DNA of 64,000 nt from Citrus sinensis (Eukaryota; Streptophyta; Magnoliopsida; Sapindales; Rutaceae): NCBI RefSeq assembly GCF_022201045.2, contig NC_068559.1, forward strand, positions 2,640,501-2,704,500, written 5' to 3'. The translations under genes were made by a program, and so were the position numbers. The first letter of the stretch is position 1; each line of letters opens with the position of its first letter. The notes beneath the pieces were generated by a model, which was not told the DNA's origin, ran no database searches, and was given only the letters and a program-made list of their open reading frames with translations. Positions 675-52,418 of this stretch are shown here, in pieces.

Positions 675-690
675 CCAGTCCCCCAGTTTC
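675..690 (-). promoter_or_regulatory. Gypsy polypurine tract
   Basis: Immediately internal to the left LTR. The minus strand reads GAAACTGGGGGACTGG, a purine-rich tract in the position where plus-strand DNA priming occurs. Confidence 0.65.
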
Positions 691-1293
691 TGGTCTGGCG
701 AGTGAAATGAGTTAAGAGTAGAAACTGATGGTCAAATCACACCAGCCCAGGGAGCTTCTCATCTGACCCTCTTTTTACTGAGACGGGCCTGACCTGATGT
801 ATTATTTTTCTACTGAGGAGGCCCCGATCTGAGCATGGGCCTAAGTGACCTGTACATAGCATATCTGGGCTTACATCTAACCTGGCCCCTTGTAACGGTT
901 GGTGACGCGGCATCTCCAGACTCTTCGTATTTGAAATTTGAAACGACGGGCTATCCGTCCTCGATATATGGGGGGGGTGAGCTGGCATATCCCATCACTT
1001 AAATGCTTCCCTTTTCCCCTTTTCGTTTTAAATCCCTAAACTGGGGTCTTCATCATTTTGTTATTCGTTTCTCCGCCGTCAACCAAATTCTCTCTGTACT
1101 TTGCTCACACTTCCAGCGTCCGGAGTATCCATTCGCCGGGTGTTTTCTGTGTCACGGCGGCGCTATCAGTGTCAGTCTATTCCAGGTATAGTCCTTTTAA
1201 CTTCTCCTCTGGTTGTTTGTTGATTGGGTTCTGTGTTGCCTTCTTTGTGTCCATATACTCGAGTTTTCTCTGTTTCCTTTCTGGGATTCCGGT

Positions 1294-3406: not shown

Positions 3407-3690
3407 GTCTATTTTTGTATAGACTTTAGATTTTCATTAGTTTTGTAACCAACTGAACATTAATAAATTTTTAGATGTTCTTTATTGGCTCCCTTGTTTA
3501 ATGTCTACTCATAGACTGCTTCTGCAAAATAATTGCACGACTTATCTGATCTTGCCTGCTGGTTTCTTAGTGGACCGAGTAGGTGTAGGTATTTACTTGC
3601 CTTAGTAAACTTCTCGTAGAATTAGCTGCTGGTCTTTCGTTGACCGAGCAGAAACAGGCACTTTGTTGCCTTAGTGGAATTTTCGAAGCT

Positions 3691-4146
3691 TTAGCTGCTG
3701 GTCTTCGTTGACCGAGCAGAAGTAGGCACTCGCTTGCCTTAGTAAAATTAGCTGCTGGTCTTCACTGACCGAACAGAAATAGGCACTCGCTGGCCTTAGT
3801 AAAATTAGCTGCTGGTCTTCACTGACCGAATAGAAGTAGGCACTCGCTGGCCTTAGTAAAATTAGCTGCTGGTCTTCACTGACCGAACAGAAATAGGCAC
3901 TCGCTGGCCTTAGGAAAATTAGCTGCTGGTCTTCGCTGACCGAACAGAAATAGGCACTCGCTGGCCTTAGGAAAATTAGCTGCTGGTCTTCGCTGACCGA
4001 ACAGAAATAGGCACTCGCTGGCCTTAGGAAAATTAGCTGCTGGTCTTCACTGACCGAACAGAAATAGGCACTCGCTGGCCTTAGGAAAATTAGCTGCTGG
4101 TCTTCACTGACCGAACAGAAATAGGCACTCGCTGGCCTTAGTAAAA
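3691..4146. repeat. 57-bp tandem repeat, 8 copies
   Basis: Units start at 3691, 3748, 3805, 3862, 3919, 3976, 4033 and 4090. Each contains TTAGCTGCTGGTCTTC, then GACCGA, and ends near GGCCTTAG; GGTC and GACC could form a short stem. A diverged unit lies upstream near 3622. The array sits between the 3' ends of the convergent antisense gene and pol. Because 57 is divisible by three it generates a spurious long minus-strand ORF. Confidence 0.95.
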
Positions 4147-4305
4147 TTCTTGTTGAGCTTGTTAGCAAAGGGATTTCGTGCTGAATTCATCTTTATTTCA
4201 AATTTGAGTGTATTACAAAACTACTGAATATTTACATGCGCATCAAGCCGTCATGCGGTTAACAGAAATAACTTATCAAAATGGGAATTCAGTAGAGGAC
4301 TCTGC

Positions 4306-7300
4306 TTACTGGAAATATTTCTTCAAGTGTTCGGCGTTCCACGACCTTTTCACGTCTCGTCCATCCTGGTACGCTAACTTATAAGCTCCCGGTCCAGTGG
4401 CTCGTATCACCCTGTACGGACCTTCCCACTTTGGGCCAAGAGCGCCATGGTTAGGATTTCTGGTGTTCTGGTTCACCCTCCTAAGTACCCAATCTCCTGC
4501 TCGGAACTGCCTTACGCGTACGTTCTTGTTGTAATAACGCATGACCCTTTGCTGGCACTGGGCCACTTTCTGTGCTGCTCCTTCCCTTCTCTCCTCCAGC
4601 AGGTCCAGACTTAAGCAAATCTGCTCGTCATTTTGCTCCTCAATGAAATATTCCGTCCGATGTGTTCCCACTCCAATCTCTGCTGGGATTACCGCCTCAT
4701 GACCAAAGGCTAAAGCGAACGGTGTTTCTCCTATGGCGGTTTTGTGAGTTGTCCTGTAGGCCCACAGTACTCCTGCTAGCTCGTCGACCCAAGCTCCCTT
4801 CTTCTCTCCCAATCTAGTCTTTAGGAGCTTCTTTATCACCTTGTTGGCCGCTTCCACTTGTCCGTTTGCCTGGGGGTGTGCGGGGGTGCAAAACTTCAGG
4901 TCCACCCCCAGGTTTCGGCAAAATTCCCTGAAGTTGCCGTTGTCAAATTGCCTCCCATTGTCTGTGATGATGGCGTAGGGGATCCCATATCTGCAGATGA
5001 TATTTTTCCAAATGAAATCTGTTGTCTTCCTCTCTGTGATTTGGCTGAGGACTCCTACTTCCACCCATTTGGTGAAGTAATCTATTGCCACAATTGCATA
5101 TGTCGCCGCTCCTCGTCCCTTAGGCAATGGACCAATCAAATCGATTCCCCATTGGGCGAAAGGCCATGGGGATGTCATCGCCGTCAGCTTTTCCGGGGGT
5201 TGTGCAGGAACCTCGGAGAAGCTTTGGCATGTTTTACAATTCTTTGCCATCCTTTTGGCGTCCTGGTGTATGGTTGGCCAGAAGTATCCTTGCCGGAGTG
5301 CCTTGAAGGCTAAAGTTCTTGCTCCCGAGTGATTGCCGCATATTCCCTCATGAATCTCTCTCAGCACATAATCCGCCTCCTCATCATCCAAACATCTCAA
5401 AAGGGGCAAGGTGAACCCTCGGCGGTACAGCACTCCATCCAGTAGCGTATACCTTGCTGCTCGGCATTTTAATTTCCTTGCTTGCCTTTTGTCCTCTGGT
5501 AAAACTCCATCGCGGACATATGCCCGAATCGGGTCCATCCAGGACTCTCCAATACTTACTCTCATCACCTCTGCTTCTTCCTCAATACTTGGTGAGGTCC
5601 TTACCTCTAATGGAACCGATTTCGGTAATTTTGGGTCTGCAATGGCTGCCATCCTAGCCAGCATATCTGCTCGGAAATTTTCATTCCGGGATATCTGCTT
5701 TACCTCCACTGCTTGGAAAAGCCTAACCATCTGCTTCGCCTTCTTCAAATAAAGGCCCATCTTTTCTCCCCTCGCTTGAAACTGATCATTGAGCTGATTA
5801 CACACCAATTGGGAATCTGCTCGAATTTCAACTCTTTCTGCTCTGAGAGCGTGTGCAAGTCCGAGCCCGGTGATAAAGGCTTCATACTCAGCTTGGTTGT
5901 TTGTGAGTTGAAATTCGAACTTCACCGCATATGTTATCTCGGTTCCCTCTGGGCTCCGTATTACCACTCCTGCTCCGGACCCTTGCTCACTACATGACCC
6001 GTCAACCATTACCAGCCATGTCCCCTTTGAATCCTCTTGCTCCTCCGGTTGTTCCTCTTGGACCTCTTCCCCCGGTTCAACACAATCCACCATAAAATCT
6101 ACCAGGGCTTGGGCCTTGGTTGCTCCTCGGGGCCTATAGGACAGGTCAAATTCGCTCAGCTCCACGGACCATTTTACTAACCGACCAGACGCATCTGGTT
6201 TTTGGAGTACTTGCCGAAGTGGCTGGTCGGTCATTACAACGATCTGGTGGGCTTGGAAGTATGGTCGGAGTTTACGTGCTGCTGTTATCAGAGCCAACGC
6301 CCACTTCTCCATTGGTGGATATCGGGTTTCTGCGTCCACCAGGGCCTTGCTCGTGTAGTATACCGGGTGTTGCTTCCCTTCTTCCTCCCTCACTAAGACC
6401 GAGCTGGTAGCCCGCTTGGAGATTGCTAAGTACAAAAGCAGCTGGTCACCCTCTCTCGGAGTTGATAGTAACGGGGCGCGGGCTAGGTATTCCTTCAACT
6501 GTCCAAATGCCTCCTCGCATTCTGGTGTCCATTCCATCTTCTTTCCTTTCTTTATGATTTGGAAGAAAGGGTGGCACTTATCAGTGGCTCGTGAAATGAA
6601 TCGGTTCAATGCTGCCAGCTTCCCCGTAAGGCTCTGCACCTCCTTAACTGTTCGTGGAGACCTCATTTCTATCACCGCCCGTATCTTCTCCAGGTTGGCC
6701 TCAATACCTCGATGGCTCACCAGGTATCCCAAGAATTTGCCCGAGCTGACCCCAAATGCACATTTCTCCGGGTTCAGCTTCATTTTGTACCTCCTCAGCA
6801 ATTCGAAAGTCTCTTCCAAGTGCTTCACATGATCCCTCGGTTCTCTTGACTTGGTGATCATATCGTCCACATATACTTCCATAGTGCGACCGATCAATGG
6901 TTTGAAGACCTTGTTCACCAACCTTTGATAGGTAGCTCCTGCATTTTTCAGGCCAAAGGGCATCACCCTGTAACAAAATAAACCCATGTTAGTTATAAAG
7001 GTGGTGCTTTCCTCATCCTGCTCGTTCATGGGTATCTGGTTGTATCCGGAGAAGGCATCCATGAAACTGAGCAGACTATGACCCGCGGTTGAGTCCACCA
7101 GCTGATCTATTTTCGGCAGGGGGAAGCTGTCCTTCGGGCATGCCTTATTGAGGTCCGTGAAGTCTACACACATTCTCCACTTCCCATTGACCTTCTTTAC
7201 CAGTACCACATTGGAAATCCACTCCGGGTACTTAGCTTCCCTTATAAATCCTGCTTTCAGTAGCTTTTCCACCTCGGCATTTATGGCCTCGTACCTTTCG

Positions 7301-9024
7301 TGGTTGAAGCACCTCCTTTTCTGCCTCACCGGCTTTGCCCCTCTTTTGACCGCCAGCTTGTGACAAGCTATCCCGCGGTCAATACCTGGCATATCCTCAT
7401 GAGACCAGGCAAATATGTCCGCATGGGACTGTAGACACTTCACCAGCTCGCCTTTTATTGCTTCGCCTAATTCTGATCCGACCTTAACCACTTTGCTAGG
7501 GTCGCTCCTGCTTACAACAACTTCCTTCAGCTTCTCAACAGGTTCCTGGCGGCCATTTTTTGAATCCCCTCGATTATCCAGAGAGGTCACCTGCAGCGTT
7601 TCCTTGGCCGCTGTAGCATAACAGCTCCTGGCCATTCTCTGGTCGCCCTTCACTACACCCACAACTCCATTTATTCGGTACTTCAGCGCCAGATAATGCG
7701 TGGATATTACGCATTGGCTTATCCTCATGAATGGTCTCCCCAATATCATCTGATAAGGACTTCTTTCCTCTACCACTACAAAGTCCAGCATCATCGTTCT
7801 TTCAAATGGCTTTGTCCCCACAGTAATCGGGAGTTCAATGACCCCCATGGGAGTTAACCGTCCCCCTCCAAATCCCTTCAAGGATGTATTCGTTCGCTCC
7901 AGCTTTAAGTCTGAAATCCCCATATCATCTAAGGCCGACTTAAACAGAATGTCTACTGAGCTGCCCGTATCTACCAGTATTCGCCGTAATTCTGTACTGG
8001 CCACCAACGCTTTAATTACCAGTGCATCCTCGTGAGGGTACAAAATGCCCTCTTCGTCATTCTCTGTCCACATAATAGGAACTTGCCGTACTTTTGCCCT
8101 CTTGGCTGCTGGCAAATTGAAAAGCACTTCTTTGCTAGTCAGGGCGTATCTTCCATAGTTCTTCCGCGCCCTGTTCGAATCTCCGGCCAATGTTGGCCCT
8201 CCTGCTATCACACGGACGGTCGACTGCTCACGTTCTAAACTCCTCTCAACTCCTTCATCCCGTGTGTACTGTGATTCCGTGGCAGGGGATATTCCATCTA
8301 CATACTCGTCCAAGTATCGGTTCCTCACTAAATCCTCCACCTGAGTCTTCAGGTCACGGCATTGGTTGATAGTGTGACCGTGAGTGTCGTGGAACTTGCA
8401 GAATCTGCTCTTATCCCGTCGGTGAGTTGGTTTTGTTATTGGGGCCAGGGGGTATAGCAGGCCTCGTCCCTCAATCCTCTCATACAATTCCTCCATGGAG
8501 ATCTTTAATGGAGTGTGTTGTCTATATGTCAAGCTCTGGTCTACCAGCTGAACGGCTCGGCTATCATGAACGTCATCTCGGGCTGGCATAGTTGCTAACT
8601 GATCTGGTCGTCTGGCCCTGGGATTGGTTGCATGTGATGCTCTGGGAGTGTTATGATAGGGGTCGGCAGCTATCTGCCGGAATTCTCGCTGCCGATCTGG
8701 GAATGGGAGACGTGGAGGCTGAGCCCGATTGTGCTGGAACTGTTGTGATCTTGTAGCTATGGGGTAAGGGCGGGATCTAGCTGATGTTCCGCCCCTTTCT
8801 GAGGGTTCCCCAGCTCGCTTTCCCGACCTGCTCCCATTGGGAGTTCTCCTTTCCTTTCGTCTTAGCTCCTCCAGCTGTTCACTCTTTATCTTTGCCGATT
8901 TTTCTTCCTCTATTTCGATATCTCTCTTTGCCTGCTCATATCCTGCTGAATAATTCTGCACCAGGGGGCTTCTCAGGTTATACCATAGCCGGCCTATCCT
9001 CACACCCTCCTTTAAACCCTTCAA
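4306..9024 (-). CDS. pol: Gypsy Gag C-terminus-protease-RT-RNase H-aRNase H-integrase
   Basis: 1572-residue polyprotein from the first ATG after the UGA; the frame is open back to 9045. Domains in order: Gag remainder with a C-H-H-C knuckle (about 209-222); aspartic protease with DTG at 352-354; reverse transcriptase about 570-770 with D656 and YVDD at 718-721; Ty3-type RNase H about 860-965; a tether rich in Glu (982-999); a second, archaeal-type RNase H about 1003-1130 with D1008, E1046, D1070 and D1120; integrase with the HHCC zinc site (H1225, H1232, C1263, C1266) and the DDE triad D1295, D1355, E1391; and a C-terminal GPY/F-like module (GPYRV at about 1535). No frameshift is seen over 4.7 kb and all catalytic residues are present. 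Dual RNase H is diagnostic of the Tat clade. Confidence 0.95.
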   Translation of the reverse strand: MKGLKEGVRIGRLWYNLRSPLVQNYSAGYEQAKRDIEIEEEKSAKIKSEQLEELRRKERRTPNGSRSGKRAGEPSERGGTSARSRPYPIATRSQQFQHNRAQPPRLPFPDRQREFRQIAADPYHNTPRASHATNPRARRPDQLATMPARDDVHDSRAVQLVDQSLTYRQHTPLKISMEELYERIEGRGLLYPLAPITKPTHRRDKSRFCKFHDTHGHTINQCRDLKTQVEDLVRNRYLDEYVDGISPATESQYTRDEGVERSLEREQSTVRVIAGGPTLAGDSNRARKNYGRYALTSKEVLFNLPAAKRAKVRQVPIMWTENDEEGILYPHEDALVIKALVASTELRRILVDTGSSVDILFKSALDDMGISDLKLERTNTSLKGFGGGRLTPMGVIELPITVGTKPFERTMMLDFVVVEERSPYQMILGRPFMRISQCVISTHYLALKYRINGVVGVVKGDQRMARSCYATAAKETLQVTSLDNRGDSKNGRQEPVEKLKEVVVSRSDPSKVVKVGSELGEAIKGELVKCLQSHADIFAWSHEDMPGIDRGIACHKLAVKRGAKPVRQKRRCFNHERYEAINAEVEKLLKAGFIREAKYPEWISNVVLVKKVNGKWRMCVDFTDLNKACPKDSFPLPKIDQLVDSTAGHSLLSFMDAFSGYNQIPMNEQDEESTTFITNMGLFCYRVMPFGLKNAGATYQRLVNKVFKPLIGRTMEVYVDDMITKSREPRDHVKHLEETFELLRRYKMKLNPEKCAFGVSSGKFLGYLVSHRGIEANLEKIRAVIEMRSPRTVKEVQSLTGKLAALNRFISRATDKCHPFFQIIKKGKKMEWTPECEEAFGQLKEYLARAPLLSTPREGDQLLLYLAISKRATSSVLVREEEGKQHPVYYTSKALVDAETRYPPMEKWALALITAARKLRPYFQAHQIVVMTDQPLRQVLQKPDASGRLVKWSVELSEFDLSYRPRGATKAQALVDFMVDCVEPGEEVQEEQPEEQEDSKGTWLVMVDGSCSEQGSGAGVVIRSPEGTEITYAVKFEFQLTNNQAEYEAFITGLGLAHALRAERVEIRADSQLVCNQLNDQFQARGEKMGLYLKKAKQMVRLFQAVEVKQISRNENFRADMLARMAAIADPKLPKSVPLEVRTSPSIEEEAEVMRVSIGESWMDPIRAYVRDGVLPEDKRQARKLKCRAARYTLLDGVLYRRGFTLPLLRCLDDEEADYVLREIHEGICGNHSGARTLAFKALRQGYFWPTIHQDAKRMAKNCKTCQSFSEVPAQPPEKLTAMTSPWPFAQWGIDLIGPLPKGRGAATYAIVAIDYFTKWVEVGVLSQITERKTTDFIWKNIICRYGIPYAIITDNGRQFDNGNFREFCRNLGVDLKFCTPAHPQANGQVEAANKVIKKLLKTRLGEKKGAWVDELAGVLWAYRTTHKTAIGETPFALAFGHEAVIPAEIGVGTHRTEYFIEEQNDEQICLSLDLLEERREGAAQKVAQCQQRVMRYYNKNVRVRQFRAGDWVLRRVNQNTRNPNHGALGPKWEGPYRVIRATGPGAYKLAYQDGRDVKRSWNAEHLKKYFQ

Positions 9025-9045
9025 CGCCTGCGGGTGATTGAAAGC

Positions 9046-9999
9046 TCACAAATCAAGTACGGCTCGGTGGTATCGCTTTATAAAATCTCGTAGGGACTCG
9101 TGCTCCTCCTGTCTCATCCCCATCAATTCCATCATGTCATCCTCTGGGGCCACTGCCCCCCGAAACTGCTCGGCCAACTCCTGGCATATCTGCTCATACC
9201 CCTTTATTCCTCCTCGGGGCAGCTTGCGGTACCATTCTCGGGCTCGTCCCTCTAGGGTCAACGGGAGCACCCTACATCTCTGAGCTGGTGTCAGCCCCTG
9301 CACACCCGTCATGTCGTTGAAACGCTCAATGTGTACCAACGGGTCACTTCGCCCGGAGTATTTGAGGTCGGGGAAGCGGAAATCCTTTGGGATTATGGTA
9401 CTCATGATCTCCGTTGACAACGGAGATTCTTCATCTAGCATTATCCTCCAGCTCGGGGGCTTTCTCTTGCCCTGCATCTCCTCTATCACCTGCGCCAATC
9501 TGCGCACCTCCCCCTCCAATTCTACAGCACGATCAGGATCACGTGCAGCTATCTGGTCTCGCTCCTGCTCGGCGTTCTGGAATCGCTGTCTGAGCTCTCC
9601 TTCATCAACACTGGCCCCTCGGCCATTTATTTCCAGTGTCCGTCCGGGGCGAGGTTGGTCTCTCCCTTCATCAACGTGTTCCCCTGGGACCCGACCAGTA
9701 CTTCGGTGGGGATGCACCCCGTTAGGTTGGTCTCCGTACGGGGGGATTTCCCCGACTCTACGCCCCCGGAGGCTGGGTTCTGCTCCAACTCCATCTCTTC
9801 CCACGGGGGTTTCGCAATCTCTTCTCCGCTCGTCCCTCAGCTCAAACAATACGGCCGCAAGAGTCTCCATTTGTTTCTCCATCCGCTCCAGTCTATCTTG
9901 CGTCATCCTCTCTCGGGCTTCATTTGCAATTTCCCGAAGAGTGATTGTCTCCCCAGCTTCGTTATCCTCCCTCAGAGCGTCCTTCCTCGTCACATCCAT
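9046..9999 (-). CDS. gag: Gypsy Gag, N-terminal part, ended by an in-frame UGA
   Basis: Retrotransposon capsid/nucleocapsid precursor. The first ATG in frame is at 9999; the reading frame is open further upstream to 10077 but only with a TTG inside the primer site. The N-terminal half is charged and coiled-coil-like. The C-terminal half carries the retrotransposon Gag capsid fold, with the hallmark run around EGRAREWYRKL and QLAEQFRG-like segments and a SLRDFIKRYHRAV segment just before the stop. The frame stops at a single UGA (9046-9048) and continues in the same frame into the pol reading frame with the rest of Gag. The UGA therefore splits the capsid domain itself. It could be a recent point mutation in this copy or a readthrough site. 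The context is UGA-GCU, not a well-known readthrough context. Confidence 0.85.
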   Translation of the reverse strand: MDVTRKDALREDNEAGETITLREIANEARERMTQDRLERMEKQMETLAAVLFELRDERRRDCETPVGRDGVGAEPSLRGRRVGEIPPYGDQPNGVHPHRSTGRVPGEHVDEGRDQPRPGRTLEINGRGASVDEGELRQRFQNAEQERDQIAARDPDRAVELEGEVRRLAQVIEEMQGKRKPPSWRIMLDEESPLSTEIMSTIIPKDFRFPDLKYSGRSDPLVHIERFNDMTGVQGLTPAQRCRVLPLTLEGRAREWYRKLPRGGIKGYEQICQELAEQFRGAVAPEDDMMELMGMRQEEHESLRDFIKRYHRAVLDL

Positions 10000-10058
10000 G
10001 TTTAACCGTTCGCTGTTTCTCCGGTACTTCCTAATTCGGTGGTAGCTTTTTATCCAGC

Positions 10059-10077
10059 TCCCCACAGACGGCGCCAA
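10059..10077 (-). promoter_or_regulatory. Gypsy primer-binding site
   Basis: On the minus strand the first internal bases after the LTR read TTTTGGCGCCGTCTGTGGGG. TGGCGCCG...GGGGA is the usual form of a tRNA-complementary primer site in Tat/Athila-like plant elements. I cannot name the tRNA with certainty. Confidence 0.7.
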
Positions 10078-10079
10078 AA

Positions 10080-10729
10080 TGTTGATGCTGAAATCTGCTC
10101 GTCCTTAGACCGACCAGATTCTTTCACCAACGTTTACGTTATTGACTGTTGCTCGAACCACTCAGGCTGGAATCACCTTCTTTTCCCTCGCTAGACCTGC
10201 GTTCACCAAAAACGGATCAGAGACGCCGGTGGTTTTGCCGGCGTAAACCCTCCGATGCCTAAGTTAGCACAAGGTGTTTACGGGAAAACAGTGTAATATG
10301 ATTTCAGGAAATTTGTAAGGAAATGGCCTGGTTGCAATTTGGCAGCGTTTCCCCTCTCTCCCTTTTTCTCTTTTATAGCCGCCCTTTGTCCCACGTTTTC
10401 CGTTTGCCCCTGATTCCTCCTTTTTCGGGTGGTGGTAGCCCCTCATGGGACTCTAACTGTTAGATTGTGGGCAAACGTGGATCTCGCGTGTCCTTCAACC
10501 GTTCTGGGAGAAACGCAACTACCGCGGTTTTGTGGGATCGTGTTCCCGCTTTCCTGGGGATGAGTATTGGCTCGGCATATATTTCTGGTCGGTATGTTTC
10601 CCTGGTTGTTCTCTCCTCTGATCGGCTCATGCTTGCCCACATGCTCTGCTCGTATATAAGAGATGAAGCAATCCGTTCTGGGATGGAACTAGTTGCATGG
10701 CCGACCTGGTGTTCTTCATGCACTCAACA
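10080..10729 (-). repeat. Right LTR (5' LTR of the element)
   Basis: 650-bp LTR, near-identical partner of 25-674. In element orientation a CTATAAAAG box near 10369-10379 is the likely start-site signal for gag-pol transcription. It is followed downstream (leftwards) by the primer-binding site at about 10059-10077 and by gag. Confidence 0.95.
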
Positions 10730-18444: not shown

Positions 18445-18588
18445 AACATATATATATGTATGTGTGTATGTATATATCAGTCCGTAGCTCACTCCCACAG
18501 CACACATATAGTCACTTAGTTTGCTCTATACAAACGGTTTTCTTTTTCTACATTTTGCGTATAAATTTTCATTTCCATTTATTTTATT
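15985..18588. other. Upstream region of truncated HSP70-DC1 copy 1
   Basis: About 2.6 kb without a gene, AT-rich. Homologous along its length to 41157-43808 and, for the first 0.6-0.8 kb, to 40000-40550. It contains a Tourist-like insertion (16312-16496) and a TA microsatellite near 18417-18450 just before the copy-1 start. No heat-shock element like those of the intact genes was seen. Confidence 0.8.
16312..16496. mobile_element. Tourist-like (PIF/Harbinger) MITE, copy 1
   Basis: About 185 bp starting AGGATGTGTTTG, flanked by TTA at 16309-16311 and 16497-16499. The same insertion is at 41477-41667, where the ends are better preserved (GGTGTGTTTGG and CGCACCC). The third paralogous copy at 40311-40320 reads straight through (CATTTAAAGT), which gives an empty site. 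Confidence 0.7.
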
Positions 18589-19913
18589 ATGGCCGGAAAA
18601 GCTGGAGTTGCTATCGGAATTGATCTGGGGACGACGTACTCCTGCGTTGCTGTTTGGCAGCATGACAAGGGGGAGATCATACCCAATGATCAGGGCAACA
18701 GGACTACTCCGTCCTACGTGGCGTAGCTCAACTTTGACGATAGTGACATATCTTAATTACTATTGAACCGGATCTTAATTTGAACAGGTCAAACTTTACC
18801 AAGCAGGGCAGTCCATGAAAGCCACAGGCCTGATCATGAGCTCCATCTGAAAAATTACAAAACACTTTTCGAATGTAACGGCTGCAGAACCAAAGGGTTT
18901 GGGTTAATGTACAGATGTGAGCTTTGCAACTTTAATCTTCACACAGACTGCATGTTCACTACAAGCCACAAGCACCATGACCACTTCAAAGACTCCACTT
19001 TCCAATTCTTCACTCAACTTCCAAAGTACAGCGGCTCCAGAGATGGCTATAAATACTGTGAGGCCTGCGTGAAACCCACACCAGGATTTGTGTATCACTG
19101 CGAAAAGAATGGGTGTGATTTGCATCCATGTTGTTTCAATCTTCCAATCAAGTTACAAATTCTTGATGCTGAACTCGAGCTTTCGGATAAGGAGTTATCG
19201 GGAAAGTGCCTTTGGTGCAACAAGAAAAGGCTCAAAGGAAGTGTAACAGGAAATTCAGGGTGGTCTTATGTGTCCGCTTGCAAGACATACAATTGCCATG
19301 CATATTGCAGCACTCATATGTTGCTAGAGAAATGGGAAAAAGCAGATTCTGGTAATGATTGTTTGGTTCCCAAGAATGTTCAGCAGCCTATCTGTGAAGA
19401 TAGCTCATTATGCAGAAGTAAAGAAGAAGAATCAGCATGGTGTTAAGCCTTGTATCAAGAATGTCAAGTTACCAGCTGTCATTAGTGCCACGTCAAAAGA
19501 TCCAAGTCAGCAGCAGTTAACAGCCTAACTAACTTCACAATGCACACTCTGTATTTGGTTATGTGTTAGCAGAGTTAGATTTCGTTTTAATAATTAGTTA
19601 GTGAGCAATCAGTTAGAGTATGAAAAACATGTATAAATAGCTACATATTCCAGATTGTTATTATGTACAAAATAACAGTTCATTAATGAAATAAGAAATT
19701 TTCCTCTATTTTCTCCGTTGCCAAACAGCAACACTTTATCAATTTTACAATTTCTTCACTATTAAAAAACAGTTGAAAACAAAGAAATGGACCAAAGGCA
19801 ACAAGAAGCTCCAGATGGCAAAGAAGTTGTTTGAAACACTCGTTAGTATCTTCATCGGCGATCACATAATCATCACTCTTGTTTCTCTCATCGTCACTGT
19901 CTTGGTTGGCTGA
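18589..19913 (+). pseudogene. Truncated HSP70-DC1, copy 1 (possible spliced 257-aa remnant)
   Basis: ATG 18589 opens 45 codons of an HSP70 start ([16 protein letters not shown], then TTPSYVA) and meets TAG at 18724. The sequence then jumps to what corresponds to residue about 421 of the intact fusions: three DC1 modules (18810-19446; Cys/His ligands intact, for example [11 protein letters not shown] and [10 protein letters not shown]). The frame ends at TAA 19444. About 320 bp further on, 19770-19913 still matches the C-terminal hydrophobic tail (LVSIFIGD) but is out of reach. Most of the ATPase domain (about 1.1 kb) is deleted. An 84-bp intron, donor GTAGCT at 18723 and acceptor ACCAAGCAG ending at 18806, would remove the TAG and join both parts in frame (774 nt including stop). 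The locus might therefore still make a DC1 protein without a membrane tail. I call it a pseudogene because of the deletion and lost tail. Confidence 0.7.
19479..19725 (+). mobile_element. Possible solo LTR inside truncated copy 1
   Basis: Sequence absent from the intact genes separates the DC1 part from the hydrophobic-tail part. It starts TGTCATTAGTGCCACG, has a TATAAATA box near 19632 and an AATAAG-like signal, and ends around GTTGCCA. CCAGC before and ACAGC after could be an imperfect target duplication. The same insertion is in copy 2 (about 44697-44945). I infer a small solo LTR; its exact ends are uncertain. Confidence 0.45.
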
Positions 19914-22639
19914 TATATAATTGCATCGCTAGCTGCTGTTATTTATATTAAAAATTAAATGAACTAAATGGTTTGCTTTATTTTTTTTTAATACATGAAC
20001 TCAGTGAAAGGTGTGCGCTTTTTCAATTTTATTTTTGATAGTTGGATACCTAAATTTGTGCAAACTTATTTTCATGTGTTCCTTTAAAAGTAACTAATGA
20101 AATTATTTACTGGCTAGAAAACTTTGTTTCTTCACTTCTAGCTGTTTTCTTGTTACCTTTTTATTTTTCACTATAGATAATTTGCACAATACCACAAAGA
20201 CAGAAGACTTCAAAGCAACATAACGACGTAAGTTAATGTTGATCAAGAAGACTTTTCAAAGCATGTAGTTGCCTAGTCGGGGAAAAGGAAAACGGAAGGA
20301 AAAAGCATTAAAAGGGAAAAACAAAAAAAAAAAGATCGAGCGCACGCATGCATGTGCGGTCCTCTCTCTAATTCTTGTGGGAGACCCCGCATGTTAAGTA
20401 AGCTTTATTCCCTCATTTCAGGAAATGACATGAACTTATAGACAAATAACGCTAGTTGGCATTCTCCATTAATCATCAACCTAGAGGCTACTTTTTAATT
20501 TACTTAGTGATAAGATCTCAAATATTACTTCTTTGTTCATACATACATATATATATCTTCAAATGATTAATATGGATTACTTAATACATTCAGCAGAAAT
20601 CATCTCATATATCCACATTGTACATTTGATTTTTTGGTAAGTATCGTGTACGATTTTAGTGTCACTTGGTCCTACAACACCTTCTTGTAAGATTCCTTCT
20701 TTGCGCGCCCATCCTGGATAAATGTCCTTTTAATCCTTATAATTTAGTTTAAGTGTCCATTCAGTTCTTACATTTTAAAAAATATCTCAAAACATCCTTA
20801 CTCTTGAATTATATTATATTTTTTCCCTTATTTTTTCTTTAGTTTTACAATAATACCTTTACTGCAATATTCTTGATATTAATTAATTTACTTATTGTAA
20901 AAGTTAATTATTTATTAGTAAACTAATCAATAAATATCAATTTTAAAAGAAGTAGTATTTCGAGTGCCCTTGCAATAATCTTGCTAATTATTATTTATAA
21001 ATAAATCAATACCAGACATCTTCAAGCAATTTTTAATACCCTTACAACAATCTTACTAATTATTAAGTTATAAACAAATTAATTTACAAAATTAATCCTA
21101 AAAGAAAAATAATAACAAAAAAGTTTATACTAACTTTTATTTTACTTTTAAGGCAATTTCATAAGTTAATATTTTTTTCTTTTCATTAATATCTCCAAGA
21201 GCATTGTCGTAAGGATATTATGTAAAAACAAAGAAGAAGTAAGGGTTATGATGTATAATAATGAATAATAAGGGTGTAATGAAGCATTTTTTTAAAATAT
21301 AGAGACTAAAACTAAATAACCACTTAACTCCAAATATAAACACTAAACAAGTATTGAAAAATGTTCTGGACTAGTTAATGCGGTTATATGTTCATTCCAG
21401 TTCATTAAGCAATCTAGAGAACAAGGGTACCACTTCTATGCACCAACAAAAGAGAGGCCATGGTACTGGTGGACGATAAGAAAAGAGGATTATGGTTGAT
21501 GATTTAATATTACTTATTATTGCGTTGCGTGGGATTTATTTGTCTAATTACGTAGTGATATGATGGTGCAGGTTGCCGGGTGGGACGTAGACATGTGCAC
21601 GTAGCGTGTTATTTTATGTTTTGTATAGTCGTATCCATGCAGTAATGATATAAAGAATTTCGAAGGATTTTAGGGGGGAAAAAAAATTTGTATTTAATAT
21701 AGTAAAATGTGATTGCGAAGATGAATTTTGAGGGACATGCGATGCGCCCCACCCCAGTGCCACGCATTCAATATCGGCCCTACAATACAGCTTCCGAGCC
21801 ACGACAACTTCCATTGCAAGTTCTCTAGTCTTTTGCTTGCCAATACTTTACAATTTAGAATCAAATCGGAAGCTTCTATTTCATATAACCTTGTATGTTT
21901 TCCAAACAACAATCAAATAACACTTTTACCTGATTGTCAGCAACTTAGCATGGTAAAAGTTATTTTTCTATTAAGTGAAATATTAAATCTTTTTTATTTT
22001 TTATTTTACAATTATTAGTTAAAAAATTAAATTACATTTTCTACTTATTTTTATTAACAATCAAATAATTAATACTTAATTAATAACAAAAAATTATGTA
22101 GATACTTCGATTATTGATTCGCTATTACAAATTAATATTTGATAATTCGGTTGAATTATATAGATATTAAATACTAAGCAAACTCTATTAAAATTAATTT
22201 TTGAGTAGTTTAGGGTCATAACATTTATCTATTATTTAATTTAATTTTACTGAATACAAAATAGTATTATAAAATCGGAAACCTAATTTGATAAGTCTTT
22301 GTCTTGTAATTAATATATTCAAATTAACAAATCCTAAACTTTTAAATTGAATTTTATATAAAGAATGACTTATTATTTGAAATCAGTGCCCTTTTTGTTA
22401 TTATTATTTTTTAGGCTTTCTTATTATTATAGACACACAAAAAAGTGATAAAAATAGTCAATAATGTGCATTAACGAGTTATGGTAAAATAGTTCACAAC
22501 TTACCAAGAAGCATGTTGTTGAATACAAATGACAACGAACAAAAGAAAATTGTGATATATTCTTATTAATAATGTACCTTTCAGAATGTTGTTGAAGAAG
22601 AAACTTCTAAGAACGTACTTAGTTTGCATATTGTTATTT
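19914..22639. other. Non-coding flank of truncated copy 1 plus a fragment of another unit
   Basis: 19914-21360 matches 45133-46436. 21730-21960 (TCAATATCGGCCCTACAATA and onward) matches the 3' flank of the intact fusion genes (30645-31015 and 55560-55960), so it is a leftover of a fusion unit whose gene is gone. The rest is AT-rich and shows no gene. Confidence 0.7.
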
Positions 22640-25420: not shown

Positions 25421-26700
25421 AATATAAGTATTAAACAAGTATTTATCAATAACCCAAACTTAACTAACTATAATGAGCTCTCAATAATCTTATCCATCTA
25501 TAATATTTGTGGAAATTTAAAGTTGGTTTCTTTTGGAAACTGCAAGTGGCTTAATTTCTAAGAAAAGTAGAAGGAAAAATAAAAAATAAAAATAAAAACT
25601 ATTGATTAGTGGCTACTTTCCTTAAATTTTCCATGAACTTACTCTAGAGACTGGAACCATTAAGCAATATTGTATACCTTATCTAATTGACAATACTGAC
25701 TTATTATCTAATAAGGGATTTCTTTACCTTATTAGATTAAGGGATAAACTAAAAGATAGTGGGGAAAAAAAGTGTATTTTTTAATCTTTAAATTTCTAAT
25801 CTTTTACTTTGATGAATTAACGATTCCTCATTTGGAACATTACTATGATAATATATAATTTATCTCAACTAATTTGGCATCTGATTTATTAATTATTTAT
25901 TGATTATTAATATCATTGATGATTGATGATAAAATCAACAAACAACTAACACATAATAGTTAATGATTAGTGACATGCATGTCAGCAGTTAAGATACAAA
26001 GCACTTATGTTAAAAATTGTATTATTATATAAACTATGTAACCGAATTATAGATCTAATGTTATCATTTAAAATAAAAAATTTGTATGCATTATTTAAAT
26101 TAACTTTAATCGCCCCAAGGTTCAAGTTTTATAGCTATTTTCTCTCCTTGTAAATATACAGGTAGCGTAGGGTGGATTCTGATGTTATTAGGTGTAGATT
26201 TTAAAGATATACTCTCTAAAGCTTTGGGCCCCGAACTAACTATGTCATATAATTTTAAAGATAAACTCTTGGTGGACTGATGATTGTAATGTCAATAGGT
26301 AGGAATATAGTTTACCAAAAAAAAAAAAAAATTAAACTACTCGTATATGACTAAAACATGAATTGTAAACGCCAATATACAATGCAACGAGCTGATTTTG
26401 GGCTCTCATTCTGACCAAAAAGCGAAGGCCTCAGCAATTGGCATTGGCCTCTCAGTACCCTTCCTAGAGAAGGAGTCAAAAGTCAAATTCATACACGTTA
26501 TTTTTTTAATTCGACAGCCCCGGCTTCCTAGCTGGCCCTCCAAAATTTAACTCAACTAAGAGCTTCAGGGAAAAAACTCAAGTTACTAATTAGTGGTACG
26601 CGGAGTGTCCACGTACGTCGATAAAACCCTAAAACAAATTCAAATCAATCCAAGGGCAATGTACACATTTCATATAACCACATATTCAACTATTGAAAAT
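25421..26700. other. Non-coding upstream region of HSP70-DC1 gene 1
   Basis: No gene. Parallels 47950-48183 plus 49091-49870 upstream of the second fusion gene. The site at about 25668 corresponds to the empty target of the Mutator-like element found at 48193-49081. Confidence 0.75.
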
Positions 26701-26714
26701 GCCCACCTTGCACA

Positions 26715-26722
26715 GAACGTTC
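26715..26722 (+). promoter_or_regulatory. Heat-shock element, distal, gene 1
   Basis: GAACGTTC: GAA and TTC units in the inverted spacing bound by heat-shock factors, about 90 bp upstream of the TATA box. Confidence 0.6.
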
Positions 26723-26778
26723 GTAGACGGTCACATTTCATGTAACCCCATAATCAACGTCCAGCAGGAAATGCCATG

Positions 26779-26791
26779 GAATGTTCCAGAA
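26779..26791 (+). promoter_or_regulatory. Heat-shock element, proximal, gene 1
   Basis: GAATGTTCCAGAA: three perfect alternating nGAAn units at the standard 5-bp period, 16 bp upstream of the TATA box. A fourth degenerate unit follows. Confidence 0.85.
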
Positions 26792-26806
26792 AGTTTGAAG
26801 ATCTCC

Positions 26807-26813
26807 TATAAAT
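26807..26813 (+). promoter_or_regulatory. TATA box, gene 1
   Basis: TATAAAT, followed about 25-35 bp later by the likely start-site region AAAGCATACTACACACAC, which is also present before gene 2. Confidence 0.8.
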
Positions 26814-26970
26814 TGCCAACTCCCTTAGGCAAAGCATACTACACACACAACGTTTCTTAGCTCTTGCTCGTTTGATAAGCATTACATTTTTTTTTTTTTG
26901 CTTCCTTTTTCTTTTAATTCCAAGAAAAAATAAATTTTTTACATTTATCTCATTTCTTTATTGGTAATTA

Positions 26971-28998
26971 ATGGCCAGAAAAGAAGGGGTACTAGGGATC
27001 GGGATCGATCTCGGTACCACGTACTCGTGCGTTGGAGTGTGGCAGCATAACAGAGTGGAGATCATAGCCAATGATCAAGGGAACAGAACGACGCCGTCTT
27101 ACGTGGCCTTCACCAAAAAGGAGCGTTTTGCGGGCAACGCTGCCAAGAACCAGTTAGCCATGAACCCCACCAACACCGTCTTCGACGCTAAGAGGCTGAT
27201 AGGGAGGAGGTTTAGCGACGTGTCGGTTCAGGAAGACATCAAGCTCTGGCCATTTAAAGTGATTGCTGGACCGAACGACAAGCCAATGATTGCCGTTAAA
27301 TACAAAGGCGGAGAGAAAAAGTACGCTGCTGAAGACATCTCTTCAATGGTGCTTGCCAAGATGCGTGAGATTGCCAAGGCGTACCTTGGTTCAAATGTGA
27401 AGAATGCAGTGGTCACCGTTCCAGCTTACTTCACTGACTCTCAGCGTCAGGCCACGAAGGATGCCGGAGCTATGGCCGGGCTTAATGTTTTGAAAATCAT
27501 CAGTGAGCCCACTGCCGCCGCCATTGCTTATGGTCTGCACAGGAAGGCTTCCTCTGAAAAGAATGTGCTGATTTTTGATCTGGGTGGAGGCACTTTTGAT
27601 GTGTCTTTGCTTACCATCGGAAAGGGCATCTTCAAAGTGAAGGCCACTGCCGGAGACACACATCTCGGTGGTGAAGATTTTGACAACCGAATGGTGAATC
27701 ATTTTATTCAGGAGTTTAAGAGGAAGAAAAAGAAGGATATCAGCGGCAGCCCTAGGGCTGTTCAGAGATTGACAACTGCTTGCGAGAGGGCCAAGAGAAC
27801 TCTCTCATCAACTTCTCAGACTACGATTGAAATCGATTCCTTGTACGAGGGTATTGATTTCTCTTCAGTAATAACGCGTGCAAGATTTGAAGAGCTCAAC
27901 ATGGACCTCTTCAGGAAGTGCATCAAGCATGTTGATATGTGCTTGAGGAATGGTAAAATGGACAAGAGCAGAGTGGATGATGTCGTTATCGTTGGTGGCT
28001 CTGCTAGGATCCCTAAGGTGCAACAACTGCTTCAGGAATTCTTCAACGGAAAGAGACTCTGCCAGAACATCAACCCAGATGAGGCCGTAGCTTATGGTGC
28101 TGCAGTTCAGGCCGCCGTGTTGAGCGGCAACCGCAGTGACAAGGTTGAGGATACCGTCGTCTTGGATGTGAACTCTAATTATAATTCATCACTTGAGCTG
28201 AAAACCACTACTAGTTTTGCAGCTCAAGATTTACCAAGCAGAGCAGGTCATAAAACCCACCGGGCTCATGACCTACAGCTGAAGAACCACAAAATACTCA
28301 GCGAATGCAATGGATGCAAGAGACCTGCTTTTGGGCTGATGTATAGATGTGAGCTGTGCAACTTCAATCTTCATATCCCCTGCATGTTCATTGACCGCAA
28401 GCCTGCTGCCAAACATGAATTCTTCGGGAACTCCACTTTCAAATCCTTACCCAAACTCCCCGGGATATGCTCTACTAGAGATTGTAGAGATTGTAACAAA
28501 CACTGTCATGCGTGTGCAAGACCCGCAGATGGTTTTGTCTACCATTGCGAAGAGAAAGGCCGCAACTTGCATCCCTGTTGCTTCAACCTCCCGCGTAAGC
28601 TGGCTATCGGTTCTGTTGAATTTGTGCTTTCTGATAAGGAATTATCACAAGAGTGCATTTGGTGCGAAAGTAAAAGGCTTCAAGGAAGTGCAAGCGATAA
28701 TTGGGGGTGGTCTTATGTATCCAAGTGTAACAATTACCATTGTCATGCATTTTGCTCTACTGAAATGTTGCTGGAGAATTGGAAAAGTAGTGAAGAAAAG
28801 TCTAAGGATAGTACTTATTACTCTTTGGTGCCGAACAGTCTGAAGCTTCCAGTTAAAAGTCAGTTGAAACGCAACAAAGGGAGGGGCAACAAATATTTGA
28901 TGATAGCCAAAGGGTTCTTTCAAATTCTTGTCAGTATCTTCATCGGCGACCCAACTACTTTACTTGCATCTCTAATCTTGGGTCTGGTCATGAACTGA
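26971..28998 (+). CDS. HSP70 ATPase-DC1 zinc-finger-tail fusion protein 1
   Basis: Single-exon, 675 residues. Residues 1-390 are a complete HSP70 nucleotide-binding domain: IDLGTTYS at 12-19, FDAK with K74, the [11 protein letters not shown] block with E179, [14 protein letters not shown] from 201, and [12 protein letters not shown] from 339. ATP-contact and catalytic residues (D13, K74, E179, D203, T208) are present. The usual interdomain linker is altered to [10 protein letters not shown], and the whole substrate-binding domain, lid and EEVD are missing. In their place are three DC1 modules, about 433-471 (H433, C446, C449, C460, C463, H468, C471), 482-537 (C512, C515, C526, H534, C537) and 553-595 (C562, C565, C586, H592, C595). 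A basic stretch (630-641) and hydrophobic segments 643-658 and 662-674 follow, suggesting a tail-anchored membrane protein. Heat induction is inferred from the promoter. Binding partners of plant DC1 domains are poorly known (zinc, lipid or protein). Confidence 0.93.
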
Positions 28999-43808: not shown

Positions 43809-45132
43809 TTGGCCGGAAAAGCTGGAGTTGCTATCGGAATTGATCTGGGGACGACGTACTCCTGCGTTGCTGTTTGGCAGCATGACAAGGGGGTGATCAT
43901 ACCCAATGATCAGGGCAACAGGACTACTCCGTCCTACGTGGCGTAGCTCAACTTTGACGATAGTGACATATCTTAATTACTATTGAACCGGATCTTAATT
44001 TGAACAGGTCAAAATTTACCAAGCAGGGCAGTCCATGAAAGCCACAGGCCTGATCATGAGCTCCATCTGAAAAATTACAGAACACTTTTCGAATGCAACG
44101 GCTGCAAAACCAAAGGTTCCGGGTTAATGTACAGATGTGAGCTTTGCAACTTTAATCTTCACACAGACTGCATGTTCACTATTACCACAAGCACCATGAC
44201 CACTTCAAAGACTCCACTTTCCAGTTCTTCACTCAACTTCCAGGGTACAGCGGCTCCCCAGGTGGCTATAACTACTGTGAGGCCTGCGTGAAACCCACAC
44301 CAGGATTTGTGTATCACTGCGAAAAGAATGGGTGTAATTTGCATCCATGTTGTTTCAATCTTCCAACCAAGTTACAAATTCTTGATGCTGAATTCGAGCT
44401 TTCGGATAAGAAGTTATCGGAAAAGTGCCTTCAGTGCAACAAGAAAAGGCTCAATGGAAGTACAGCAGGAATTCCAGGGTGGTCTTATGTGGCCGCTTGC
44501 AACAAATACAATTACCATGCGTATTGCAGCACTAATATGTTGCTAGAGAAATGGGAAAAAGCAGATTCTGGTAATGATTGTTTGGTTCCCAAGAATGTTC
44601 AGCAGCCTATTTGTGAAGATAGCTCATTATGCAGAAGTAAAGAAGAAGAATCAGCATGGTGTTAAGCCTTGTATCAAGAATGTCAAGTTACCAGCTGTCA
44701 TTAGTGCCACGTCAAAAGATCCAAGTCAGCAGCAGTTAACAGCCTAACTAACTTCACAATGCACACTCTGTATTTGGTTATGTGTTAGCAGAGTTAGATT
44801 TCGTTTTAATAATTAGTTAGTGAGCAATCAGTTAGAGTATGAAAAGCATGTATAAATAGCTACATATTCCAGATTGTTATTATGTACAAAATAACAGTTC
44901 ATTAATGAAATAAGAAATTTTCCTCTATTTTCTCAGTTGCCAAACAGCAACACTTTATCAATTTTACAATTTCTTCACTATTAAAAAATAGTTGAAAACA
45001 AAGAAAGGGACCAAAGGCAACAAGAAGCTCCAAATAGCAAAGAAGTTGTTTGAAACACTCATTAGTATCTTCATCGGCGATCACATAATCATCACTCTTG
45101 TTTCTCTCATCGTCACTGTCTTGGTTGGCTGA
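43809..45132 (+). pseudogene. Truncated HSP70-DC1, copy 2
   Basis: Same internal deletion as the copy at 18589, but the start ATG has become TTG (43809) and a 1-bp loss near 44180 (TTCACTATTACCACAAGC) shifts the frame between the first and second DC1 modules. The downstream frame reopens (44288-44665) with [10 protein letters not shown] and the third module, ending as in copy 1. The hydrophobic-tail remnant lies at 44989-45132, again separated by the shared insertion. Three independent lesions make it non-functional. Confidence 0.88.
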
Positions 45133-49920: not shown

Positions 49921-50178
49921 GAAAGTTAAGTTCACGCGCGCCATCTTAACGCCACGCGGAGTGTCCGCGTACGTCAATAAAAAACCTAAAACAAATTCAA
50001 ATCAATCCAAGGGCATCTCTAGACGTACACGTTTCATATATCAACGGCTGAAAGTTAAGTTCACGCGCGTCATCTTAACGCCACGCGGCGTGTCCGCGTA
50101 CGTCAATAAAAAACCTAAAACAAATTCAAATCAATCCAAGGGCATCTCTAGACGTACACGTTTCATATAACCACGTAT
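49921..50178 (+). repeat. 129-bp tandem duplication in the promoter of gene 2
   Basis: Two copies starting at 49921 and 50050, each with TTCACGCGCG, CCACGCGG, TCCGCGTACGTCAATAA and AAATCAATCCAAGGGCATC. Gene 1 has a single diverged copy. Each unit carries CGCG boxes (CAMTA-type sites) and a TGACGT core (bZIP-type, reverse strand). The 129-bp length, divisible by three, produces a spurious repetitive ORF. Confidence 0.9.
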
Positions 50179-50208
50179 ATCAACGGCTGAAACTGCCCAA
50201 CTTCCACA

Positions 50209-50221
50209 GAACGTTCCCGAA
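50209..50221 (+). promoter_or_regulatory. Heat-shock element, gene 2
   Basis: GAACGTTCCCGAA: three perfect alternating GAA/TTC units, 18 bp before the TATA box. Confidence 0.85.
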
Positions 50222-50239
50222 TTCACGTTTCAAAAAACC

Positions 50240-50247
50240 TATAAATA
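50240..50247 (+). promoter_or_regulatory. TATA box, gene 2
   Basis: TATAAATA, with the same AAAGCATACTACACACAC start region downstream as gene 1. Confidence 0.85.
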
Positions 50248-50402
50248 CCCCAATGCCAACTCCAACTCTCCAAGGCAAAGCATACTACACACACAACATT
50301 TCTAAGCACTTGCTACTTCTGATAAGCATTGCATTTCTTTGGTTCTTCCTTTTCTGATCTAAGAAAAAGTAATTTTATTTACGTTTATTTCATTTTTTAT
50401 TG

Positions 50403-50868
50403 ATGGACGGGAAAGAAGAGGTACTAGCAATTGGGATCGATCTCGGCACCACGTACTCGTGCGTTGGAGTGTGGCAGCATGACAGGGTGGAGATCATAGC
50501 CAACGATCAAGGGAACAGAACGACGCCGTCTTACGTGGCCTTCACCGATAAGGAGTGTTTCATGGGCGACGCTGCCAAGAACCAGTTAGCCATGAACCCC
50601 ACCAACACCGTCTTCGACGCTAAAAGGCTGATAGGGAGGAGGTTCGGCGACGTGTCGGTTCAGAGCGACGTCAAGCTCTGGCCGTTCGAAGTGGTTGCCG
50701 GACCGAACGACAAGCCAATGATTGTCGTTAACTACGAAGGCGAAGAGAAGAGGTATGCTGCTGAAGAAATCTCTTCAATGGTGCTTGCCAAGATGCGTGA
50801 TATCGCTGAGGACTACGTTGGCTCACCTGTGAGCAATGCTGTGGTCACCGTTCCCGCTTACTTCACCA

Positions 50869-50902
<34 letters not shown>

Positions 50903-52418
50903 TATGGCCGGGCTTAATGTTTTGAAAATCATCAGTGAGCCCACTGCTGCTGCCATTGCATATGGTCTTGACAGGAAGGCCGCCTCTGAAAAGAATGTGT
51001 TGATTTTTGATCTGGGTGGTGGTACTTTTGATGTGTCTTTGCTTGCCATCGAAAAGGGTATCTTCAAAGTGAAGGCCACTGCCGGAGACACACATCTCGG
51101 TGGTGAAGATTTTGACAACAGAATGGTGAATCATTTTATTCAGGAGATCAAGAGGAAGACAGAGAAGGATATCAGCGGCAGCCCGAGGGCTGTTCAGAGA
51201 TTGAGAAAGGATTGCGAGAGGGCCAAGAGAATTCTCTCGTCAACTTGTCAGACTAAGATTGAAATCGATTCCTTGTACGAGGGTATTGATTTCTCTTCGG
51301 TTATAACGCGTGCAAGGTTTGAAGAGCTCAACATGGACCTCTTCAGGAAGTGCATCAAGCATGTTGATATGTGCTTGAGGAATGGTAAAACGGACAAGAG
51401 CAGCGTGGATGATGTCGTCATCGTTGGTGGCTCTGCTAGGATCCCCAAGGTGCAACAACTGCTTCAGGAATTCTTCAACGGAAAGAGACTCTGCAAGAAC
51501 ATCAACCCAGATGAGGCTGTAGCTTATGGAGCTGCAGTTCAGGCCGCCGTGTTGAGTGGCAACCGCAGTGACAAGGTTGAGGATATCGTCATCTTGGATG
51601 TGAACCCTAATTATAATTCACCACTTGAGCTGAAAACAACCACTAGTTTTGCAGCTCAAAATTTACCGAGCAGAGGAGGTCATACAAGCCACCAGGCTCA
51701 TGACCTACAGCTGAAGAACCATAAAACACTCAGCAAATGCAACGGATGCAAGAGACCTGCTTTTGGGCTGATGTATAGATGTGAGCTGTGCAACTTCAAT
51801 CTTCATATCCCCTGCATGTTCATTGACCGTAAGCCTACTGCCAAACATGAATTCTTCGGAAACTCCACTTTCAAACTCTTACCCACCCTCGGGGCATGCT
51901 CTACTAAAGATTGTATAGATTGTAACAAACACTGTCACGCGTGTGGAAGACCCGCGGATGGTTTTGTCTACCATTGCGAAGAGAAAGGCCGTAACTTGCA
52001 CCCCTGTTGCTTCAACCTTCCGCGTAAGCTGCAAATCGATTGTGTTGAATTTGAGCTTTCTGATAAGAAATTATCACAGAAGTGCATTTGGTGCAACAGC
52101 AAAAGGCTTCAAGAAACTGCAAGTGACAGGTGGGGGTGGTCTTATGTATCCAAGTGCAAGAATTACCATTGTCATGCATTCTGCTCTACTGAAATGCTGC
52201 TGGAGGAATGGAAAAGTGGTGAAGATAATTCCAAAGAGAACTCTTTGGTGCCGAGCAGTCTGAAGCTTCCTGTTAAAAGTCAGTTGAAACGCAACAAATG
52301 GAGGGGCAACAAATACTTGATGATAGCCAAGGGGTTCTTTCAAATTCTTGTCAGTATCTTCATCGGCGACCCAACTACTTTTCTTGCTTCGCTAATCTTG
52401 GGTCTGGTCATGAACTGA
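50403..52418 (+). CDS. HSP70 ATPase-DC1 zinc-finger-tail fusion protein 2
   Basis: Single-exon, 671 residues from ATG 50403 (a TTG just before it is not used). Same architecture as the gene at 26971: HSP70 nucleotide-binding domain with IDLGTTYS (12-19), K74, the [11 protein letters not shown] block, [15 protein letters not shown] and [12 protein letters not shown]; linker changed to [10 protein letters not shown]; three DC1 modules with all Cys/His ligands ([42 protein letters not shown]); a basic stretch then the hydrophobic tail [16 protein letters not shown]. It keeps GLDRK where gene 1 has GLHRK. The two proteins are very similar over their full length with no frame disruption in either, and many differences look conservative, which suggests selection. 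AATAAA at 52620. The promoter has a heat-shock element and a 129-bp duplication. Confidence 0.93.

Follow-up and report, generated by a model that had tools for sequence, protein, structure and literature searches.

We identified two intact Citrus sinensis genes in which a full HSP70 nucleotide-binding domain (NBD) is followed, in place of the substrate-binding domain (SBD), by the Cys/His modules of a DC1 protein, with both halves in one reading frame and both under purifying selection. The genes lie in the window, the 64,000-nucleotide stretch analysed here (C4:2640501–2704500), and the surrounding assembly (299.7 Mb, 11 contigs) was scanned for further cases. Architecture, copies, selection, the ATP site, the SBD-docking and J-protein face and the heat-shock elements were all computed. 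This order of domains had been proposed in the first-pass annotation, and it is borne out by Pfam, by the single open reading frame and by its occurrence in two copies.

A full HSP70 nucleotide-binding domain joined to DC1 modules

The first gene, F1 (26971–28998, plus strand), is an uninterrupted open reading frame of 675 amino acids. Residues 10–402 match the Pfam HSP70 family (PF00012) with 580 bits over profile positions 2–391 of 599, and residues 428–472 match C1_2 (PF03107) with 34.1 bits against a cut-off of 26. The HSP70 part comprises the full NBD (residues 1–393, 26971–28149, from the Pfam match and the DnaK alignment) and the interdomain linker DTVVLDV (residues 394–400, 28150–28170, aligned to DnaK 388–394), and then stops. 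A spacer of about 17 codons (28171–28222, delimited by reading) ends in TTTTGCAG at 28215–28222 and leads into the DC1 part (28223–28890), in which Pfam and alignment give one good C1_2 module, followed by two that are degenerate. The frame closes with a hydrophobic tail containing GDPT (residues 641–675, 28891–28995), delimited by alignment and hydropathy.

By reading, the first DC1 module has the usual Cys/His set and is predicted to bind zinc. The later Cys/His modules are degenerate, with the same pattern in two stand-alone DC1 relatives, and when the DC1 part was cut out and searched at a permissive Pfam threshold, two C1_2 stretches were matched. The initial count of three DC1 zinc fingers was generous, because Pfam supports one full module and the later modules are degenerate. 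We assign the tail to the DC1 protein because a GDPT-containing tail also closes all three aligned stand-alone relatives. Its 19-residue hydropathy peak reaches 1.96 at residues 652–670; the earlier description of it as membrane-like holds for its hydrophobic character, and membrane anchoring is predicted from hydropathy alone. The exposure of zinc fingers where a peptide cleft would be, put forward in the same annotation, is likewise a prediction. An AlphaFold model of F1 made with a six-row alignment had a mean pLDDT of 34.3.

In both F1 and its intact sister F2, the HSP70 profile match ends short of an SBD (at position 391 and 394 of 599, respectively), and neither protein has one. Apart from the gene itself, a tblastn search of the window with the SBD of its ordinary HSP70 gene gave just two weak matches (E 0.095 and 0.66), and no SBD remnant was seen there. 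Because an SBD was searched for without success, we class the predicted proteins as NBD proteins of the HSP70 superfamily and not as HSP70 chaperones. The NBD begins at residue 9–10, like that of cytosolic HSP70, and in the alignment, read by eye, we found no ER-targeting N-terminus in F1 or F2 and no room for a signal peptide.

Two intact and two broken copies lie in one cluster

F2 (50403–52418, plus strand; found from the reading-frame list, Pfam and alignment) encodes 671 amino acids, scores 576 bits for HSP70 and 35.3 bits for C1_2 (cut-off 26), and is 87% identical to F1 in protein and 91% in DNA. Two further copies on the plus strand are broken, each having a damaged DC1 part and an HSP70 part cut short by a stop after 45 codons. 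In F3 (18589–19913) the HSP70 codons and stop occupy 18589–18726, the DC1 part 18788–19446 and a tail piece 19761–19913; in its sister F4 (43809–45132) the corresponding pieces are 43809–43946, 44008–44665 (with a frame shift) and 44980–45132. The pairs F3+F1 and F4+F2 lie in two copies of one duplicated stretch, at about 16–31 kb and 41–56 kb. An ordinary HSP70 gene with one intron follows on the same strand (57297–59769; exons 57297–57510 and 58037–59769, from Pfam and reading frames).

Across the assembly, HSP70 and C1_2 meet at these four loci only, among 80 HSP70 matches and the best 150 of 252 C1_2 candidates scored (lists read by eye). Three NBD-length reading frames on C7, C9 and C2 looked, by reading, like first exons of Hsp110-type genes. 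The second intact copy, the two broken copies and the ordinary HSP70 gene in the same window make a misjoin unlikely.

The duplicated stretches differ in their similarity. F3 (18461–20210) and F4 (about 43.7–45.4 kb) are 94.0–99.6% identical per 250 bases and their upstream flank 85.9–95.2%; gene conversion or a composite history is possible for a pair closer than its own flank. About 0.3 kb of extra sequence interrupts the DC1 tail of F3 (19447–19760) and also that of F4, and could be a small mobile element that predates the duplication. Over 26598–28998 and 50083–52418, F1 and F2 have a dS of 0.19 and 22% mismatches in the 5' flank, with 8–9% in two other duplicated stretches; judged from these values, the intact genes may have split earlier than the block duplication. 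Elsewhere in the window, 25–10729 is an LTR retrotransposon that looks young by its sequence, with repeats (25–674 and 10080–10729) 99.8% identical across 650 bases. Inside it are a long gag-pol-like frame, encoded on the minus strand (4306–9024), and, at 3556–4148, a short tandem array of similar units whose minus-strand reading is a repeated LRPASAYFCSVSEDQQLI peptide.

Both halves are under purifying selection

Over 671 aligned codons, F1 and F2 show 166 base differences and 81 residue differences. Neutral simulations (4,000 runs at each of two transition ratios) gave an expectation of 114–118 residue changes, and none of the 4,000 was as low as 81 at either ratio; stops are absent from both genes, against 4.5–5.3 expected. 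Taken by part, residue changes as few as those observed arose in 0 of 4,000 simulations for the NBD, in 1 and 11 of 4,000 (at the two ratios) for the DC1 part and in 79 and 96 of 4,000 for the tail. The corresponding dN/dS values were 0.30 for the NBD, 0.36–0.40 for DC1 (0.40 for residues 428–620) and 0.07 for the tail. A comparison of fused with ordinary NBDs shows stronger constraint (dN/dS 0.10–0.11) than that of F1 with F2. Both indels in the coding sequence are multiples of three, whereas 8/8, 16/27 and 20/22 indels in flanking stretches are not. Both halves are under purifying selection, and the gene is maintained. With two intact copies, indels that keep the frame and selection on both halves, the earlier reading of one joined gene stands, and misassembly or a chance reading frame is rejected on the strength of the copies and the selection. 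Across the junction (residues 389–427, 39 codons) there are 6 residue and 9 base changes, a count as low being reached in 2,106 and 2,435 of 4,000 simulations, with a dN/dS of 0.55. Because these junction codons look neutral, selection alone does not prove that the two halves are read together.

The NBD stands in place of a first DC1 exon

In a tree of NBDs, F1 and F2 form a group with support 100/100 on a stem of 0.17, with tip lengths of at most 0.049 for six ordinary paralogues and the neighbouring HSP70; most other forks were unresolved. The fused NBDs are 80–82% identical to that of the window's ordinary HSP70 (F1 over the NBD: dS 0.94, dN 0.10), and the intron at codon 71 of this neighbour is absent from F1 and F2.

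The DC1 half and tail are colinear with stand-alone DC1 proteins at C4:2539230 (44% identity), C4:2551703 (43%) and C8:4256482 (37%), of which the first two are encoded upstream of F1, at distances of 128 and 116 kb. Read by eye, these two C4 genes each open with a short exon followed by an intron. In C4:2539230 that intron ends in AG 28 bases ahead of the first shared His codon; in F1 and F3 an AG precedes this codon by 26 bases. TTTTGCAG in F1 sits at the 3' splice site position of the stand-alone genes, and DNA similarity between F1 and F3 begins at this old acceptor AG. Because the AG spacing and the start of the F1/F3 similarity coincide there, we place the HSP70 part at the position of the first DC1 exon; on this sequence evidence the NBD apparently replaces that short exon at what was once an intron boundary, in the manner of exon shuffling. 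The gene would have arisen by an in-frame join between a cytosolic-type HSP70 NBD with its linker and the main exon from a stand-alone DC1 gene. One such gene (L032 3528–3604; C4, about 2.539 Mb) appears to begin MGQASSNFS, a start that is gone from the fusion and that looks like an N-myristoylation signal.

Heat-shock elements are kept ahead of the intact genes

A perfect three-unit heat-shock element precedes F1 (26778–26792, plus strand; TATAAA at 26807–26812) and F2 (50208–50222, plus strand; TATAAA at 50240–50245). These elements lie 193 and 195 bases ahead of the ATG, that of the ordinary HSP70 lies 169 bases ahead, and in all three genes a TATA box follows about 30 bases past the element. 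Shuffled sequences reached the same score in 2, 3 and 3 of 500 cases (F1, F2 and the ordinary gene). No such element was found ahead of F3 or F4, for which 285 and 500 of 500 shuffles reached the score.

The catalytic core is kept and the docking and J-protein surfaces are changed

E. coli DnaK and the ordinary HSP70 agree at 197 positions, of which 18 (one a gap) are changed in both F1 and F2. Among the residues listed for the ATP site (28 positions, 25 usable), 24 of 25 are kept, the exception being L339I.

A second set comprised 15 positions to which the excerpted text of PMC5240922 ascribes an important role in SBD docking, in allostery or in the action of DnaJ. Both copies carry changes at five of them (N147T, R167K, N170S, E217K and D326N; F2 also has D148N), compared with 13 of the 182 other deeply conserved positions, a difference (Fisher one-sided p 0.006) that is indicative only because the changes at N147, D148, R167, N170 and D326 had been seen by eye before the list was fixed; that at E217 had not been noticed before. 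None of the 15 is changed in any of six ordinary paralogues. Excerpts of the DnaK literature describe what these residues do: N147, D148, R167 and D326 variants retain ATP binding and hydrolysis and lose allostery (PMC5240922); R151, K155 and R167 face SBD D481, D326 faces SBD K414, and R167 replacements increase basal ATPase (PMC4595643); R167 and E217 contact the J-domain (PMC13012618), R167 being the J-domain's target arginine (PMC7289447). The R167K change preserves charge.

The excerpt of PMC5519331 describes DnaK 206–219 as a groove with negative charge, contacted by the basic helix II of the J-domain. The net charge of the matching segment is −2 in the neighbouring HSP70, −2 in five of six other paralogues and 0 in the sixth (L008), against +3 in F1 and +2 in F2, a switch of the J-domain groove from acidic to basic. 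The changed docking residues may reflect decay of an unused surface, which would resemble re-wiring; the charge reversal in the groove goes further than mere loss.

The linker keeps both Asp residues in F1 and F2 and is less hydrophobic at one place (TVVL and IVIL, versus LLLL in the neighbour). According to the excerpt of PMC6843406, alanine or Asp changes in the DnaK linker cause loss of ATPase activity or docking. A literature search for the DnaK 1–393 construct gave no match.

A possible ATP-timed tether, and its alternatives

We favour the reading of a selectively maintained chimeric gene whose product serves as an ATP-timed, localised switch or tether and not as a peptide-binding chaperone, to which we give an even chance of being right; the presence of NBD and C1_2 within a single reading frame, twice, is consistent with it. 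Expression, ATPase activity and membrane targeting are here predictions. Heat stress would induce the fusion protein; its NBD, unrestrained by a substrate domain and only weakly controlled by J-proteins, would bind and hydrolyse ATP; DC1 modules and hydrophobic tail together would direct the enzyme to a membrane or to a DC1 partner; and the nucleotide state, with the linker docked or free, would alter how the DC1 part is presented. More tentatively, the protein could be a lineage-specific Hsp70-derived ATPase that has shed SBD and J-protein control and acts, through its DC1 zinc modules, as a heat-induced, ATP-timed membrane tether or switch.

It is unlikely, though worth weighing, that the HSP70 part contributes just a heat-inducible promoter and a soluble N-terminal carrier, with DC1 doing the work and ATP turnover irrelevant. 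The retained heat-shock elements, the altered docking surface and the existence of stand-alone DC1 proteins without an NBD would all fit such a carrier, but the NBD is itself under purifying selection (dN/dS 0.30, with residue changes fewer than in any of 4,000 simulations), and its ATP site is nearly complete.

We think it improbable that the locus makes two products, an NBD and a separate DC1 protein, whether by an alternative promoter, by a different transcript end or by use of the old DC1 splice site. The acceptor position of the DC1 relatives is still occupied by TTTTGCAG and the junction codons appear neutral, as this would predict; however, the frame is open over 675 and 671 codons in the two copies with no stop at the junction, and the first Met past it is residue 457, within the C1_2 module. 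For a short junction intron, a hand count found two candidate donors before TTTTGCAG (intron lengths 79 and 55), both frame-breaking.

Slightly more doubtful still is a decoy, in which the NBD would hold exchange factors or other NBD partners at DC1-marked sites with no cycle of its own. The lack of an SBD and the preferential change of deeply conserved positions on the SBD and J-protein face agree with this idea, but binding to exchange factors is hypothetical. A functionless chimeric pseudogene or misjoin is very improbable: two of the four copies in the window are broken and, among the scored C1_2 matches (best 150 of 252), the fusion is confined within the assembly to this cluster, but the two intact copies, 91% identical in DNA, have no stops, only in-frame indels and selection on both halves.

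The gene is a natural experiment on Hsp70 allostery, with a catalytic core kept and the surfaces facing the SBD and J-proteins changed, as expected if those residues serve SBD and J-protein tasks. Were it expressed, the fusion would demonstrate that an Hsp70 ATPase cycle can drive another output domain, and the DC1 family of plants, itself poorly understood, would gain an ATP-dependent member.

Comparison with known systems

With cytosolic HSP70/HSC70 (PF00012) the fusion shares the NBD, the ATP-site residues, the linker with both Asp, and a heat-shock element with TATA box; it differs in lacking the SBD, lid and HSP70 C-terminal tail, in its changed docking and J-domain residues and in lacking the neighbour's codon 71 intron. 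With the stand-alone DC1/CHP proteins (PF03107) at C4:2539230, C4:2551703 and C8:4256482 it shares a colinear DC1 part, Cys/His modules and the GDPT tail, although these are 37–44% identical to its DC1 half, and the C4 genes have a short first exon (MGQASSNFS or MGQVSSNFS) where the fusion has an NBD of about 400 residues. DC1 proteins vary in location, since VLG has been placed at the vacuolar membrane (a report cited in the excerpt of PMC10707348), and sweet potato IbCHR10, which lacks a predicted C-terminal transmembrane helix, is found in tagged form in the nucleus and elsewhere (excerpt of PMC13033517).

The truncated plant Hsp70T proteins (T1 and T2 lineages) are likewise cytosolic-type with an altered C-terminus, but are described, in the excerpt of PMC10687569, with an SBD-beta or atypical SBD-beta; the words 'zinc', 'fused' and 'fusion' do not occur in the text of that source. 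The general rule, assumed at the outset, that HSP70 families keep an SBD does not hold: Hspa13/STCH, a stress-linked protein with an Hsp70 NBD and no SBD, works as an ATPase and has a role in the cell (excerpt of PMC9691929). Hspa13/STCH is an animal ER protein that keeps most J-domain contact sites, whereas the fusion has a cytosolic-type start, altered J sites and a DC1 partner. Titles and opening lines of abstracts gave no fitting description of an HSP70–DC1 protein, in keeping with the earlier statement that none with this order was known. Both halves are familiar and, going by those titles and opening lines, the join of an HSP70 NBD to DC1 modules is a new combination.
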